From positions 1 through 43,349 of the forward strand of contig CANDQP010000013.1 of the NCBI GenBank assembly GCA_947388185.1: 43,349 bases of DNA. The letters are read 5' to 3'. The notes under the pieces were generated by a model. The model was given only the letters and a program-made list of their open reading frames with translations. It did not search any database and was not told the DNA's origin. Both the position numbers and the translations under genes were made by a program. Positions 5,735 through 13,451 of this stretch are shown in pieces. The DNA is from an uncultured Dorea sp. (GTDB taxonomy: Bacteria; Bacillota; Clostridia; Lachnospirales; Lachnospiraceae). Each line of letters begins with the position of its first letter. Position 1 is the stretch's first letter.

Positions 5735-8700
5735 TTATATCTTGAAATCCTCTTCTTTCAGAATGATCCGGTCAGATTCATCCGTACCTCTTCCGAACAC
5801 TCTTCTGGCAAGATGCTTGACATTGGCCTTCTGTGAATGCTCGATCGCTTCATCCATGATATCCTTGACCTCCGCAACCGATACGGCATGATCCTCGCGC
5901 TGCATCACATCAATACGGCTGTACAGAGCCAGAATACCCATCTCATCCAGCTTGTATCCGTTCTCCTTCGCATATGTCTGGCCAAAAGTAACCAGTTCAT
6001 CATTGACGAATACCGGAAGCTCCAGCTTAGATGTGAACTTCTTCTTGAATTCCGGGTTCGCTGTCAGAATACGCTCCAGCGGCTTTCTCTGATCCTCCAG
6101 TACGAAGAGCATCTCTCCTGTCTTTCTCTCCATCAGGCGGTTCAGCTCCTTGATAGTCCTGGAATTCAACTTGCCTGCTTTCTCGACGATGATCGCTCCC
6201 CCGCGCAGCTTCTGGATAATATTGGTCAACTCCTTCTTATTCAGAGATTCTCCTGTTACGATCGCAACCTTCCCTTGCTTGAGATTCCGCTGCTTCTGGA
6301 TCGCTTTGACGATATCTACCGCCAGCACCGTCTTACCGGAACCCTTGCGTCCGATCACCAGAAGATTCCCCGTCCTGGAAGTTCCTTCCTTGCGGGCTCT
6401 CCTGTCATTATCCAGCACTTCCACGATCTGCTCGCTCATTCCCCTTACCGGAACAAAATACGAGAACAGCTTCTTCTGCTCTTCAGTAAGCCCCGCTTTC
6501 AGACCGATCTCGCTGGTCGCACTCAGATCATAACGTCCCGTAACAACGAATCCGGTATCGAATGGAACCCCGCTGCCCTTCGCCTTCTTGATCCTTGCCT
6601 GGATCTCTTCTTCGGACGGCTCTTCAATTTCAAGCTCCTCTTCTTCGTCGAATTCATCCTCATCTTCGAAGTCTTCTTCGTCCTCTTCCTCAAAGTCCTC
6701 CTCGTCCAGATCCTCTTCCTCGTAATCTTCCTCTTCAAAGTCCTCTTCGCCGAAGCCCTCTTCCTCAAAGTCTTCTTCGATGAAGTCTTCTTCGTAATCT
6801 TCCTCTTCCTCGAAGTCTTCTTCTTCCAGATCCTCTTCCTCAAAATCCTCTTCCGGCTCTTCTTCGTAATCCTCTTCTTCTAGTTCCTCCTCGTAATCTT
6901 CCTCCTCGAAGTCTTCCTCTTCCTCAAAGTCCTCTTCTTCAAAATCTTCTCCGAAGTCTTCTTCCTCTTCCTCTTCCTCAAAGTCCTCTTCTTCAAAGTC
7001 TTCTTCTTCAAAGTCTTCTCCGAAGTCTTCTTCCTCTTCTCCAAGGTCCTCCTCAGATTCTTCTCCTGTCTCCTCATCAGCGGCTTCTTCGTAATCTTCC
7101 TCTTCCTCAAAGTCTTCTTCCAGATCTTCCTCTTCGAAGTCTTCTCCTTCGTAATCTTCCCCGTCAAAGTCTTCTTCCAGTTGTTCGGCACTGATATCTT
7201 CCTTTTCAGAATCAGAAGCGTCTTCGCCCAATTCTTCCATGAGCCTTACAATGTCATCCGGTATCCGCTGTGTCTTGCCGTCGACAGCATCCGGCTTCTC
7301 TTCTGGTTTGTCCGCCGCAACCGTCTTCTTCGTAGTCTGTTTTACCTTACGCTTAACCGGCTTCTCTTCTGCTTCTTCATCCAGGCTTCCCGGCTCGCCT
7401 TCAACCATCAGATCTATATCCGGAATACTATCCATCAGGTCTGCCAGATCGATCTCCTCTTCCGGTTCCATATCGGCCAAAGCTTCCGCCGGCTCTTGCA
7501 CAATTGCCTCTTCTGCTGCCGCCTTCTCCGCTTCTGCCTCCCCGGCTGCTTCGACTGCCGTTTCTGCTGTATCCGCCTTCCCGGACGCTTCTTCCGCCGC
7601 TTCTGCTGTATCCGCCTTCCCGGCTGCGATCGCGCTTGCTTTGCGCAGCGCTTCTTCCGTAATCTTACGCGCTTCCTCTTCTGCCCTGCGCACCGCCTCT
7701 TCCGCTGCCGCCTTGCGTGCCGCAGCCTCCTCTTCCGCCTTGCGCGCAGCCTCTTCCGCCGCAGCCTTTCTCGCAAGCGCAGCTTCCTCCGCCTTGCGCG
7801 CGGCTTCTTCCGCTGCCGCCTTGCGCTCTTCCGCCGCTTTCAGAGCCGCCTTCTCCTTAGCTTCCTTCTCCTCAGCCGCCTTGCGCTCTGCTGCTTTGCG
7901 CAGCGCCTCCTTTTCTGCCAGCTTATTTGCAGCCTCCATCTCCTCAGGAGTCATACCTTCTTCTTTCGCCTTGCGCTCCGCGTCTCTGCGCGCAAGTTCT
8001 CTCTGCAGGCCGATCTCGTCCCGTTCTCTCCTTAGCTTCTCATCATCCTCTTCCCGCTGTCTCTCTATGGCTTCCGCATTCGCTCTCTGTTTTGCTTCCC
8101 ATTCCTGAAGGATCTCTTCGATCCGCATCTGACCCGTTGCACGGAGCGCACTGGTCTTCCTGTCCGTCATAATCACGCCAGTCTTCTCCTTGCGTACCGG
8201 TTCCTCCTGCTGCGGCTCCTCCGGCTCCTCTATCTGCAAAGTCTCCTCTGCAGGAACCGGCTCTTCTGCCTTCTCTTCATCCTTCTTACCATTAATAAGC
8301 GCTTCCATATGTATCTGACCGGTAACCTGGCGAATACCCTCCTTCACCCTGGCAACCGTCTTCTCTACGCTCCTCATACCGCTCGCGAATGCCATACCGT
8401 TCGCAAGCGCCTCCTGAAGCGTCGCACCCTTCACAACCTTCTTAATAGAAGAGCCCGCATCCGCTGACAATTCCTGCGGCGCCTCTTCTCCTTCCGGATC
8501 CGGAGTCTCAGGCTTCTCTTCCGCGTCAATAACAGGCTCCTGCGGCTCTCCCCTGCCGGCAGGCGCACTCTCCCCGCCTGGTGAGACCGGCATCTTCGCC
8601 GAAGTGTTCCTCTTCAACGGGCGCGGCTTCTTGGACGCACCGGGCCATGCGTCATATTTCTCCTGCTGCAGAGGCGTCAACGGCTTATACTGCATCTTAA

Positions 8701-9259
8701 GCTCCATAGCCTGATAAACATACTTGCCTTCACTGAACCACAGGATCAGATCGTCACACTCTTCCAGACACTCTGCCGTCATCCCGGCTTCATGATACAG
8801 CCTTGCCAGCTCAAATGCCCATTTCTCAATATATTCTGACTTCTTAAAATCCTCCAAGGCAGCAATCTGCTCACTGAGCGGCGCTCCCTGCGCACTCAGT
8901 ATCCTGTATTTTAATATGTACTGATTCGGATCCTTCGGCGCCAGTTTCACAAATTCTTCATAACAATCCGCTGCTTCTTCCACATCATTGATCTTCAATG
9001 CCAGCAGCCCCAGTCGATACGCTATCTTCCTGCTCCCCGGAGAACGATCGAACGCTACAAACAGAATATCCCGGCTCTTCTGAAATTCGCCGTTATATTC
9101 ATAAATCTCACTTACAGAATTCAGAGTTGCTACATTCTTGACCCTGCGCCAGTCAATCGTATCCGCGATCTCCATCGCTTTCTTGTACTGCTTCTTCTCC
9201 ATGTACTCCTGCATCTGCTCTGTTTTCACCCTATATTCATATTTATCCAAACTTCTCAC
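5735..9259 (-). CDS. TPR N-terminus / Ala-Lys-Glu coiled region / acidic E-D-F-Y low-complexity region / AAA-like P-loop ATPase C-terminus
   Basis: 1174 aa; TPR-like helical repeats; Walker A 'VIGRKGSGKT'; 'GGAIIVEKAGKL' Walker B-like; long (EEEDFEEEDY)n tract. Confidence 0.85.
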   Translation of the reverse strand: MRSLDKYEYRVKTEQMQEYMEKKQYKKAMEIADTIDWRRVKNVATLNSVSEIYEYNGEFQKSRDILFVAFDRSPGSRKIAYRLGLLALKINDVEEAADCYEEFVKLAPKDPNQYILKYRILSAQGAPLSEQIAALEDFKKSEYIEKWAFELARLYHEAGMTAECLEECDDLILWFSEGKYVYQAMELKMQYKPLTPLQQEKYDAWPGASKKPRPLKRNTSAKMPVSPGGESAPAGRGEPQEPVIDAEEKPETPDPEGEEAPQELSADAGSSIKKVVKGATLQEALANGMAFASGMRSVEKTVARVKEGIRQVTGQIHMEALINGKKDEEKAEEPVPAEETLQIEEPEEPQQEEPVRKEKTGVIMTDRKTSALRATGQMRIEEILQEWEAKQRANAEAIERQREEDDEKLRRERDEIGLQRELARRDAERKAKEEGMTPEEMEAANKLAEKEALRKAAERKAAEEKEAKEKAALKAAEERKAAAEEAARKAEEAALARKAAAEEAARKAEEEAAARKAAAEEAVRRAEEEARKITEEALRKASAIAAGKADTAEAAEEASGKADTAETAVEAAGEAEAEKAAAEEAIVQEPAEALADMEPEEEIDLADLMDSIPDIDLMVEGEPGSLDEEAEEKPVKRKVKQTTKKTVAADKPEEKPDAVDGKTQRIPDDIVRLMEELGEDASDSEKEDISAEQLEEDFDGEDYEGEDFEEEDLEEDFEEEEDYEEAADEETGEESEEDLGEEEEDFGEDFEEEDFEEEDFEEEEEEEDFGEDFEEEDFEEEEDFEEEDYEEELEEEDYEEEPEEDFEEEDLEEEDFEEEEDYEEDFIEEDFEEEGFGEEDFEEEDYEEEDLDEEDFEEEDEEDFEDEDEFDEEEELEIEEPSEEEIQARIKKAKGSGVPFDTGFVVTGRYDLSATSEIGLKAGLTEEQKKLFSYFVPVRGMSEQIVEVLDNDRRARKEGTSRTGNLLVIGRKGSGKTVLAVDIVKAIQKQRNLKQGKVAIVTGESLNKKELTNIIQKLRGGAIIVEKAGKLNSRTIKELNRLMERKTGEMLFVLEDQRKPLERILTANPEFKKKFTSKLELPVFVNDELVTFGQTYAKENGYKLDEMGILALYSRIDVMQREDHAVSVAEVKDIMDEAIEHSQKANVKHLARRVFGRGTDESDRIILKEEDFKI
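6630..7190. repeat. Low-complexity tandem-like DNA encoding the acidic-aromatic tract
   Basis: Repeated tcttcctc(g/a)aagtcttc-type units throughout. Confidence 0.85.
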
Positions 9260-9421: not shown

Positions 9422-9471
9422 AAAAAAGGAGCATCCCTTAAACTATCAATTTAGTTATCCGGTAATGCTCC
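9422..9471 (-). terminator. Intrinsic terminator of putative ncRNA
   Basis: Minus strand GGAGCAT...AACTA-aattga-TAGTT...ATGCTCC followed by TTTTTTG. Confidence 0.8.
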
Positions 9472-9966
9472 GTTATTTTTCTATATTAAGTTTTATCATA
9501 TTCTTATATAAATCGGAGGATTCTTATTTAGATTCAGATGTTCCCTTCTGCCTTTTTATCTTATACCTGTCCCGCTACTCTATACATCGTGTCCAAGGTA
9601 AATGTATAAAATAAGCTTGCCCCTCACTGGTACAGATCGTTATCCCTTCTATAAATCTTATGGACGCTCGCTACAGCTTGCACAAATCATATCCGTCCTG
9701 TTAGGTAATGTTCCTATGTACATCGTCTAATCGCTTCGGATCTATGTGGTATAATTCTCAATATGTCTGCAAATCTTCATCTATCTCTTATATCCGGTCT
9801 CTTCTTCTCCGACTCTTCTTTTCATTCAATTTACCGGCTTATCTCTCTATGGTTAAGGCTTAATCTGCGGGAACTTATATCTGCCATACCACTAACATAT
9901 TGAGTTGTTGAATTCTTTACATTGTCCAATGGATTAAGCCTCCTTCCTTTTATTGTCTTTTGGATT
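9422..9966 (-). ncRNA. Putative large (~545 nt) structured non-coding RNA
   Basis: Perfect promoter upstream, terminator at the end, frequent stops in the SD-proximal reading frame and no tracked minus-strand ORF, multiple perfect dyads: AGGCTTAATC/GATTAAGCCT (9856-9865 with 9932-9941), TATACAT/ATGTATA (9581-9587 with 9602-9608), GGACG/CGTCC (9662-9666 with 9694-9698), TAGG/CCTA (9702-9705 with 9713-9716). Confidence 0.65.
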
Positions 9967-10855: not shown

Positions 10856-12892
10856 TTACAGGATCAGATCATCTACTTTCTTATATTCCTTCAGGCTGTA
10901 TGCTTCTATAATATTTCCCTGAACCACATACAGGGTATCTTCTATATAGAGACCTCTTGAACTCCTCATTCCATTTCCATTGATCTTCTCTTCCATATTA
11001 CAGATGAATCCATTGTCCTCATCATACTCAAAGAGGAAATATTTCTGACCGCCTTCGGAATCCCCGGGGAATCCGATAATATTCCGTTCCGGGCTGATCA
11101 GCGCCGCCTTATAATCATAAGAAACCTCCGTGCTATATACATTGTTCAGCACATGGGTATCTGACTCCTTCACATCCGTCTTGTCGGAAATGTCGAACAT
11201 GGTAAGCTTCACGCCGTCTGTTACCAGCGTCTCTTCATCCACATTCATCCCGATTCCAAGAAGCCGGTCTTCCCCATAGAAATGAAGATACTCCGAGAAT
11301 CCCGGGATCTTGAGCTCCCCGACGATCTTCGGCTTCTTCGGGTTTGACAGATCTGCACTGAACAGCGGGTCTGTCTCGCGGAAGGTCACGAAATAAGCCG
11401 TATCTCCCATGAATCTCGCCGAATAGATCCTCTCATCCTTCGCAAGCCCCTCGATGGCCCCGAACTGCTCTAATTCTCCGTCCAGAATATACACGGCATT
11501 GGAATCTCCTCCCACTCTGTCTTGCTTGGTCACAACCACTCTCAAGCATCCATCATACTCGTCGATGCAGAAGGAATCTTTCAGATATCCGTCAAACTGC
11601 CCCTGTGCCTTCGCCTTTAGCTGTCCGTCCTTGTACGCGACCTTACGAAGGGTTGTGACACACCCGCTGGCCGAAGCTCCCCATTCCTCTTCATAGAAGT
11701 AGATATTCTGATTGCTCACATACAGGCTGCCGCCTTTCGATAATATTGCCTTGCTGTCCTTCGTCTTATCCGGCTTCTTCAGATCTACCGCCGTGATAAC
11801 TTCATACATATTAGCCTGGGAGACCGGAGGAAGATAGATATCATCCGCACTCATCACGTCTCCGCCGATCAGCGGAATGAATTCCCTTGGCTCATTCTGG
11901 CTTACTTCGCTCCAGATATGGTATTCGCTGAACAGATACAGATACCCGTCCGACATCCTCGAAGAATTATAATATCCGCTCTGGCTGACCCTTCCCTCCT
12001 CCACAGGATTCGCGGGATCCCCTATATCATAAGTCACAGCTACAACCGCCGAGCTATCGCCTGCTCCCTGGTAAGAAGGGTCCGCCGAATATAACAGGTC
12101 TGAACCGCCCCGGTTACAGACTGCAACCAACTTCTTCTGTTCCGGCACAACATAGAATTCCTCGATATAGCAATTACCGCCCACCTCTATCGATGCCGCC
12201 TTCTTCATATCCTGGTTCCTGGAATCAACCACGGCGATCTTATCTCCATCATCTTCCAGAACGTAGAGATAAGTTCCGTCCGTCTTCACGATATCTCCCT
12301 CGTCTACGCCCTCCTGCCTTACGTTCGTCTCCGAGTATCCGCCCGCTCCGCTTGTGTCCTGTGCTATCTCTGCAGGAGCGCTGTCTGTCGACGCCCTGTC
12401 TTCCGCAGTGCTCTCCATCATCTTGGTCTCCCCGTTCATACCTCCGTCAGCCGCCCCTGTTTCCGCCTCATACAGCTCCTCATGCTTTATAACGGACTCT
12501 TCCATCTCTCTTAGCCGCCTCTGATATTCCTCCAGGTAACCATAGACCTGATCATAGCTCTCTGCCCGGGCAATCATACGGCTGTCGTCAATCTGTATCT
12601 CATCTTGCATATCAATCCCCGATGCCCAGTTCCCAGGCCTTGAATCTGCCGTACCGCCCGCTCCCGAAGTCTTCCATGCAGCTATACCGATCACAGCCGC
12701 CGCGCACGCCGCCGCCAATGCACTGGTCTTCCGGACTCCCCATCTGGACTTTTTATTTTCTTTCTTTTCCTTCTCCCTCTCCTTCTCTTCCAGCATTCGG
12801 CGGATATTGTCCGGCTCAAGCTTCTCCGGGACCTTTATGTCCGCCGTCCTCTGCCTTACCTGATCTAATACATCCTGTTCTCTCTTATTCAT
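10856..12892 (-). CDS. Membrane-anchored beta-propeller domain protein, putative anti-sigma factor
   Basis: Short charged cytosolic N-terminus, TM 'TSALAAACAAAVIGIAAW', 'YSETNVRQEGVDEGDIVKTDGTYLYVL' beta-propeller family signature; follows ECF sigma gene. Confidence 0.85.
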   Translation of the reverse strand: MNKREQDVLDQVRQRTADIKVPEKLEPDNIRRMLEEKEREKEKKENKKSRWGVRKTSALAAACAAAVIGIAAWKTSGAGGTADSRPGNWASGIDMQDEIQIDDSRMIARAESYDQVYGYLEEYQRRLREMEESVIKHEELYEAETGAADGGMNGETKMMESTAEDRASTDSAPAEIAQDTSGAGGYSETNVRQEGVDEGDIVKTDGTYLYVLEDDGDKIAVVDSRNQDMKKAASIEVGGNCYIEEFYVVPEQKKLVAVCNRGGSDLLYSADPSYQGAGDSSAVVAVTYDIGDPANPVEEGRVSQSGYYNSSRMSDGYLYLFSEYHIWSEVSQNEPREFIPLIGGDVMSADDIYLPPVSQANMYEVITAVDLKKPDKTKDSKAILSKGGSLYVSNQNIYFYEEEWGASASGCVTTLRKVAYKDGQLKAKAQGQFDGYLKDSFCIDEYDGCLRVVVTKQDRVGGDSNAVYILDGELEQFGAIEGLAKDERIYSARFMGDTAYFVTFRETDPLFSADLSNPKKPKIVGELKIPGFSEYLHFYGEDRLLGIGMNVDEETLVTDGVKLTMFDISDKTDVKESDTHVLNNVYSTEVSYDYKAALISPERNIIGFPGDSEGGQKYFLFEYDEDNGFICNMEEKINGNGMRSSRGLYIEDTLYVVQGNIIEAYSLKEYKKVDDLIL

Positions 12893-12910
12893 ACAGCCGC
12901 CTCCTTTCAC

Positions 12911-13390
12911 TCATCTCAACACACATTCCATCTTCTGCAGCGCACGGCTCCTCTTGGAACGAACCGTATTGGGGTTCATCTTCAAGGCATCCCCGATCTC
13001 CTTGCTGTTATAGCCGCCGAAGACCGATAATCCCACGATCGTCTGCTCCTCCTCCTCCAAAAGGAAGAATGCCTTCCTGACGTCCACAGCCAGGCCAACA
13101 TCTGGGTCCTCATAGGCCGCCTGCACATATGTCTCTTCCCCGAAGTAATCCCGCCTTGCCGCTTCTTTTTTCAGTCTCTTCTTGCATATGTTCGACACTA
13201 TCGTAAATATCCAGCTTCTGAAAGCGTCTGGTTTCTTAAGCTTCCCTATGTTCTCATAAGCTGCAACCACCGCTTCGCTGACCGCGTCCTCCGCCTCCTG
13301 CTGATTCTGCATCATGCAAAGGGCAAACCGGTACAGATCCACATAGACAGTCTCATACATCTGCGCAAATGTCTTCGCGTCGCATCTCAT
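12911..13390 (-). CDS. ECF-type RNA polymerase sigma factor
   Basis: 'QEAEDAVSEAVVAAYENIGKLKKPDAFRSWIFTIVSNICKKRLKK' and sigma4 'GGYNSKEIGDALKMNPNTVRSKRSRALQKM'. Confidence 0.92.
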   Translation of the reverse strand: MRCDAKTFAQMYETVYVDLYRFALCMMQNQQEAEDAVSEAVVAAYENIGKLKKPDAFRSWIFTIVSNICKKRLKKEAARRDYFGEETYVQAAYEDPDVGLAVDVRKAFFLLEEEEQTIVGLSVFGGYNSKEIGDALKMNPNTVRSKRSRALQKMECVLR

Positions 13391-13451
13391 ATCTTCTCCT
13401 CCCTGCAATAATCAATTTGCACCGTCTCATTTCCGTATATACATAAGAGTC

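Follow-up and report, generated by a model that had tools for sequence, protein, structure and literature searches.

A putative family of large structured RNAs with an embedded reading frame in Lachnospiraceae and a possible role of translation as its input

The question raised by this locus is what kind of gene lies on the minus strand between a TPR/ATPase gene and bioY in an uncultured Dorea sp. The window analysed here is the whole 43,349-nt stretch of DNA, and within it the earlier note had read positions 9422-9966(-) as a stand-alone structured RNA gene without a convincing ORF. The first part of this reading was upheld by negative Rfam searches, covarying helices and the recovery of homologues, but the second part was not. 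Two things had been missed, an embedded ORF and a long-range pseudoknot. The sequence comparisons thus support a structured RNA gene that stands alone, ends in a terminator and is new to Rfam, with a putatively translated segment added to the picture.

The transcript is predicted to be a discrete unit of about 545 nt in the window (9422-9966(-), with the 5' end inferred from the -10 element) and of about 300-900 nt across the family, with a sigma-A-type promoter and an intrinsic terminator. The near-consensus promoter described previously is present at 10001-9973(-) (TTGACA-N17-TATTAT), matches at 11 of 12 positions, additionally has the TG of an extended -10 and is kept in the genus alignment. 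The hairpin with T6 at 9422-9471(-) was likewise confirmed as a terminator. Its position is conserved across the genus while the stem sequence is swapped among members (GGAGC../GCUCC, GGCGG../CCGCC, GGCUGC../GCAGCC), and every copy read at full length ends in a terminator of its own. A pattern-based terminator search left the hairpin at 9471-9422 unflagged, probably due to its interrupted stem.

Searching the window with the Rfam covariance models gave no match at the gathering score and none at E<=5, and relaxed thresholds applied to 15 homologues returned only three matches to miRNA models, which were regarded as chance or artefacts. Membership in the ROOL, GOLLD, OLE, HEARO or raiA classes, which had been considered possible, was therefore not supported, and the novelty with respect to Rfam stands. 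The RNAIII model was also unmatched in the window and the 15 homologues. The raiA motif (ModT) is, like the RNA described here, a structured RNA of Bacillota (PMC11706538), but the two differ in genomic context and no covariance-model match connects them. The accessible part of the open-access literature names no such RNA; fragments of it may be among the unnamed candidates in the PMC8040213 supplements.

In the genus itself, the RNA was found in 12 of 12 genomes, there located upstream of the TPR gene, with a single copy in the genome of the window. A profile search with the embedded ORF added about 20 further genera. An exact-pattern scan of the GTDB species genomes yielded 104 matches, comprising 102 genuine loci and two chance matches, in Nostoc (L094) and Streptococcus (L125), which were rejected because neither has a ribosome-binding site or an ORF. 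The genuine matches listed come from Dorea, Mediterraneibacter, Faecalicatena, Schaedlerella, Sporofaciens, Extibacter, Muricomes, Tyzzerella and other Lachnospiraceae or Clostridia. In a family-wide search with a covariance model of 49 diverse members, the RNA was detected in 73 of the 397 Lachnospiraceae genomes sampled, representing 63 of 334 genera. Searches at the order and class level returned no convincing member beyond Lachnospiraceae, and a match in G758 (E 0.009) from the search wider than the family was treated as chance. All homologue counts given here vary with filters and sampling. The RNA would add an uncatalogued large family that is common in gut Lachnospiraceae such as Dorea, Mediterraneibacter, Faecalicatena and Schaedlerella.

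Two further observations concern copy location and number. The only match on a viral contig (L178, IMG/VR, positions 27-48) sits right at one end of a 15-kb contig and is probably host flank. One genome, G117, has two copies (L244, C7:23814-24008; L245, C12:353108-353287). One of them precedes the TPR gene by about 1.7 kb and its ORF is frame-shifted yet open over 30 codons, and the other is located elsewhere with an ORF closed after two codons.

Contrary to the claim that no convincing ORF is present, a Shine-Dalgarno sequence (AAGGAGG, 9939-9945(-), overlapping helix H0) leads a 32-codon ORF (MDNVKNSTTQYVSGMADISSRRLSLNHREISR) with a TTG start at 9929 and a TAA stop (9831-9929(-)). AAGGAGG-9-TTG is the best conserved block of the RNA, and the ORF is present in every genome of the genus. 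In 113 distinct homologues, the ORF opens with ATG (65), TTG (40) or GTG (8) and never with CTG, and the stop always falls within 24-36 codons. The QY codons follow the start at a distance of 24, 27 or 30 nt, a multiple of three in all 111 homologues measured, whereas the spacing right after helix H1 varies freely among the 113 homologues.

As a single sequence, the RNA folds no better than its shuffles (z -1.25, with 9 of 100 shuffles as good). For this reason the dyads named in the earlier note, all of which exist at the places given there, prove nothing alone, and comparison between homologues is needed. Three helices emerged from such an alignment. H1 joins UCAAUAUGUU (9894-9903(-)), inside the ORF at about codons 9-12, to GACAUAUUGA (9758-9767(-)), downstream of the ORF stop. 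H2 pairs CCGGU (9833-9837(-)) with ACCGG (9794-9798(-)). H4 is a long-range pseudoknot in which the H2 loop (UCGGAG; strand GUCGGAG, 9807-9813(-)) pairs with the conserved CCUCCGA motif near the 3' end (strand CUCCGAU, 9512-9518(-)), about 300 nt apart in the window.

For H1 and H2 together, 98.9 % of positions were paired in 49 sequences, compared with 92.9 % in shuffled alignments and 20-40 % when the strands were slid, and eight pairs had double changes; none of 500 shuffles reached any of these measures. A second set of 38 more distant matches gave 93.8 % versus 79.9 % for shuffles, with 13 of 15 pairs double-changed and again none of 500 shuffles reaching this, although this alignment was fitted to the covariance model and hence leans towards it. 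H4 was paired at 96.6 % in 108 sequences, above the shuffle maximum of 94.4 %, with six of eight pairs compensatory. The changes are also evident in individual groups. H1 takes the forms UCAAUAUGAG/CUCAUAUUGA, UCAAUAUGGU/ACCAUAUUGA, UCAAUACAUC/GAUGUAUUGA and CCAGUGUAAG/CUUACACUGA and, by eye, UGCGACG/CGUCGCA in G016, and in a Tyzzerella-type group UCGGAG/CUCCGA becomes UUGGAG/CUCCAA with U-G intermediates. Compensatory changes in the predicted helices H1, H2 and H4 were thus shown to exceed all shuffles.

The remaining proposed pairings fared less well. RNAalifold on the 12 genus members recovered H1, H2 and a GGAGG/CCUCC pairing, but the latter was set aside as the main pairing because CCUCCGA covaries with UCGGAG in the wider set. 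For the same motif, the suggested AAUC-cucc-GAUU hairpin is not the conserved pairing, as in H4 the partner of its CCUCCGAUU is UCGGAG, located some 300 nt further upstream. The dyads UAUACAU/AUGUAUA and GGACG/CGUCC do exist, but only in the closest three to four genomes. Further elements of the alignment are a conserved block AUACCACA (9745-9752(-)), a hairpin H5 (9704-9724(-)) that is degenerate in the window and has a GUGURAAGAAAC loop in most homologues, and a small hairpin around the start codon (UCC-AUU-GGA, 9925-9933(-)), which was read directly from the alignments.

Some homologues carry additional hairpins. Of 113 homologues, 28 (e.g. L046, L053, L055, L061) have, in the 5' UTR ahead of the ORF, a hairpin with a variable complementary stem and the invariant loop UGACGAGAAAG, which is missing in the window copy. 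In the 3' half of L046, L053, L054, L063 and L066, hairpins of the type GUUAU-AGAAGRA-AUAACUUAAUA are repeated two to three times per RNA and seem to explain much of the length variation.

The 10-bp dyad AGGCUUAAUC/GAUUAAGCCU noticed at the outset corresponds to H0, in which the ribosome-binding region pairs with the 3' half of its own ORF. The 5' strand (9932-9941(-)) spans the end of the Shine-Dalgarno sequence and the spacer, and the 3' strand (9856-9865(-)) lies inside the ORF; in L121 the pairing is GUAAAGGCC/GGCCUUUAC. Counting H0 on a MAFFT alignment was uninformative due to register shifts between clades. Duplex energies were supportive in the two scorable clades, with -13.3 and -12.5 kcal/mol for cognate strands and -10.3 and -8.6 kcal/mol for cross-clade combinations between them, but the energies of a third clade were invalid, and its 5' strands paired well with the 3' strands of another clade. 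Therefore, H0 is less secure than H1, H2 and H4, with its register shift and its reliance on duplex energies. Since H0 and H1 cross, the full fold would either contain a second pseudoknot or alternate between the two helices.

The peptide encoded by the ORF behaves differently from its frame. In the ORF frame, pN/pS was 1.0-2.5 at all divergence levels, compared with about 0.7-0.9 in a neutral simulation, but the values for the whole ORF are inflated by low synonymous divergence because RNA pairing partly holds the synonymous sites. Codons 2-9 are a fairer test since they are mostly outside the named helices, and these alone gave 1.0-1.2. At the level of sequence comparison, it is shown that the frame is kept and that the predicted peptide is not under purifying selection. 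As the peptide is not conserved, this suggests that translating itself, rather than the peptide, is what matters. An intact protein in the interval had been named in advance as an argument against an RNA gene. The ORF is indeed intact, but as it lacks codon constraint and the covariation is strong, the RNA call survives.

The ORF is not retained everywhere. In a second clade it often comprises only about 15 codons, and in six members of this clade (L245, L246, L250, L251, L258, L262) it is closed or startless while H1 still has 9-10 of 10 positions paired. Because such members keep H1, it is concluded that the RNA fold is primary and the ORF a usual, not a universal, input; that some lineages can dispense with translation is evident from the ORF-less members. 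Genus g61 offers a separate observation of stepwise decay in two genomes, with the ORF and H1 disappearing before H2 and H4: by reading, L190 (G071) has lost the ORF and H1 and retained H2 and H4, and L198 (G387) has lost all of them.

Downstream of the RNA in the window lies the TPR/ATPase gene (5735-9249(-)), which has its own promoter at 9335-9307. Its 1174-aa product comprises an N-terminal TPR region, long Glu/Asp-rich repeats and a C-terminal P-loop ATPase-like domain. In 77 of the 84 close homologues whose flank is long enough, the gene comes next downstream of the RNA on the same strand, and bioY is upstream in only 15. This old linkage suggests a possible partnership between the RNA and the TPR/ATPase protein.

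The reading preferred here, with a probability of roughly 0.5, is that the RNA is a translation-gated structured riboregulator of a new family. In a more specific form, which can only be put forward tentatively, it would be a large ornate RNA, present in about one fifth of the sampled Lachnospiraceae genomes, whose conformation is set by the ribosome on the embedded ORF while the product is irrelevant, with translation as the input and the H2/H4 pseudoknot as the output. We infer that the ORF is translated and that translating it constitutes the signal. When the RNA is folded, H0 would pair the ribosome-binding region with the 3' half of the ORF, the start codon would be placed in the loop of the small hairpin, and codons 9-12 would be paired past the stop by H1. 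A translating ribosome must then open both of these helices, which would make the fold incompatible with ribosome loading, and loading ribosomes would thereby set the state of the RNA. The H2/H4 domain would serve as the output module. As a guess, it may act in trans by mRNA pairing or protein binding and report the translation status, and the neighbouring TPR/ATPase protein is, equally as a guess, the first candidate for a bound protein. The base-pairing scheme is firm enough for direct mutational tests. The retention of start codon and frame alongside a drifting peptide makes it testable whether an RNA can read translation per se as a signal.

A fairly unlikely alternative is a ribonucleoprotein scaffold or large RNA-only particle of the OLE, ROOL or GOLLD sort, with the TPR/ATPase protein as partner and the ORF as a ribosome-contact site instead of a switch. 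This would fit the size, the pseudoknot, the repeated hairpins in longer homologues and the deep synteny with one protein gene, but the RNA outlives its adjacency to that gene, and ornate RNAs are not known to us to conserve the start of an ORF. ROOL, GOLLD and OLE are large ornate RNAs with pseudoknots and of unknown function (PMC12286853), and thus share the length class and the pseudoknots with the RNA described here, which differs from them in having no covariance-model match and in containing an ORF. Furthermore, ROOL and GOLLD sit in phages near tRNA islands, whereas the synteny with the TPR gene and the single contig-edge match in the viral-contig scan place this RNA on the chromosome.

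That the RNA is merely the mRNA of a functional protein of about 30 residues, with the structure tuning its translation, is unlikely. It would explain why all close homologues retain the ribosome-binding site, the start and the frame, and why the M-D, Q-Y, G and A positions of the peptide are invariant or nearly so. However, Q-Y overlaps a strand of H1, and compensation in H1 overrides the peptide (QYVSG to QYGCG or QYESG). In addition, ORF-less members retain H1, second-clade ORFs are often half-length, and a dedicated mRNA needs no conserved 3' structure of several hundred nucleotides. The peptide as product was dropped because of the pN/pS of at least 1 together with this overriding compensation. 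RNAIII of Staphylococcus aureus, with 514 nt, 14 stem-loops and the delta-hemolysin ORF (PMC9266662), is one of the two nearest comparisons, as both are stand-alone structured RNAs of about 500 nt with a short ORF. The peptide of RNAIII is functional, whereas that of the Lachnospiraceae RNA is unconstrained, and the conserved CCUCC motif of the latter serves the internal pseudoknot H4. As in dual-function RNAs, the structured RNA keeps its ORF start, ribosome-binding site and frame, but selection on the peptide was not found; a start and frame that are kept while the peptide drifts are the opposite of what is expected of them.

It is quite improbable that the RNA is a cis-acting leader or attenuator of the TPR/ATPase gene, despite their adjacency. 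A leader would have to accompany its target gene in cis throughout, whereas the two are apart in eight genomes, by 170 kb in G226, on different contigs in G112, G236 and G351, and by kilobases in G266, G357, G340 and G067. The TPR gene also occurs in 372 of 397 Lachnospiraceae genomes, most of which lack the RNA, and has its own promoter. Since the RNA persists in genomes with the gene at another place and ends in its own terminator, it is not simply the leader of this gene, and the relocated copies led to this role being dropped.

A hok-like type I toxin mRNA, silenced by folding and an antisense RNA, would share Shine-Dalgarno sequestration and long-range pairing in an RNA of several hundred nucleotides bearing a short ORF, but is highly improbable, as the peptides are, by reading their sequences, polar, poorly conserved and without the membrane-spanning stretch of a hydrophobic toxin, and no conserved antisense promoter was noticed in the window. 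For hok mRNA, activity is tied to 3' processing and refolding (PMC8309996). Both RNAs would have in common a short ORF that is translated according to how the RNA folds, as inferred for the Lachnospiraceae RNA, whereas the toxin-like peptide, the antisense partner and the helices are not shared. By analogy, the translation-gated RNA may work partly like RNAIII or hok mRNA while being a member of neither.

Elsewhere in the window, at 10856-13408(-), a sigma-factor-like ORF (12911-13408) is followed by a gene for a beta-propeller domain protein (PF09826, E 8e-154) that has a transmembrane-like stretch close to its start, and the two may form a sigma/anti-sigma pair.
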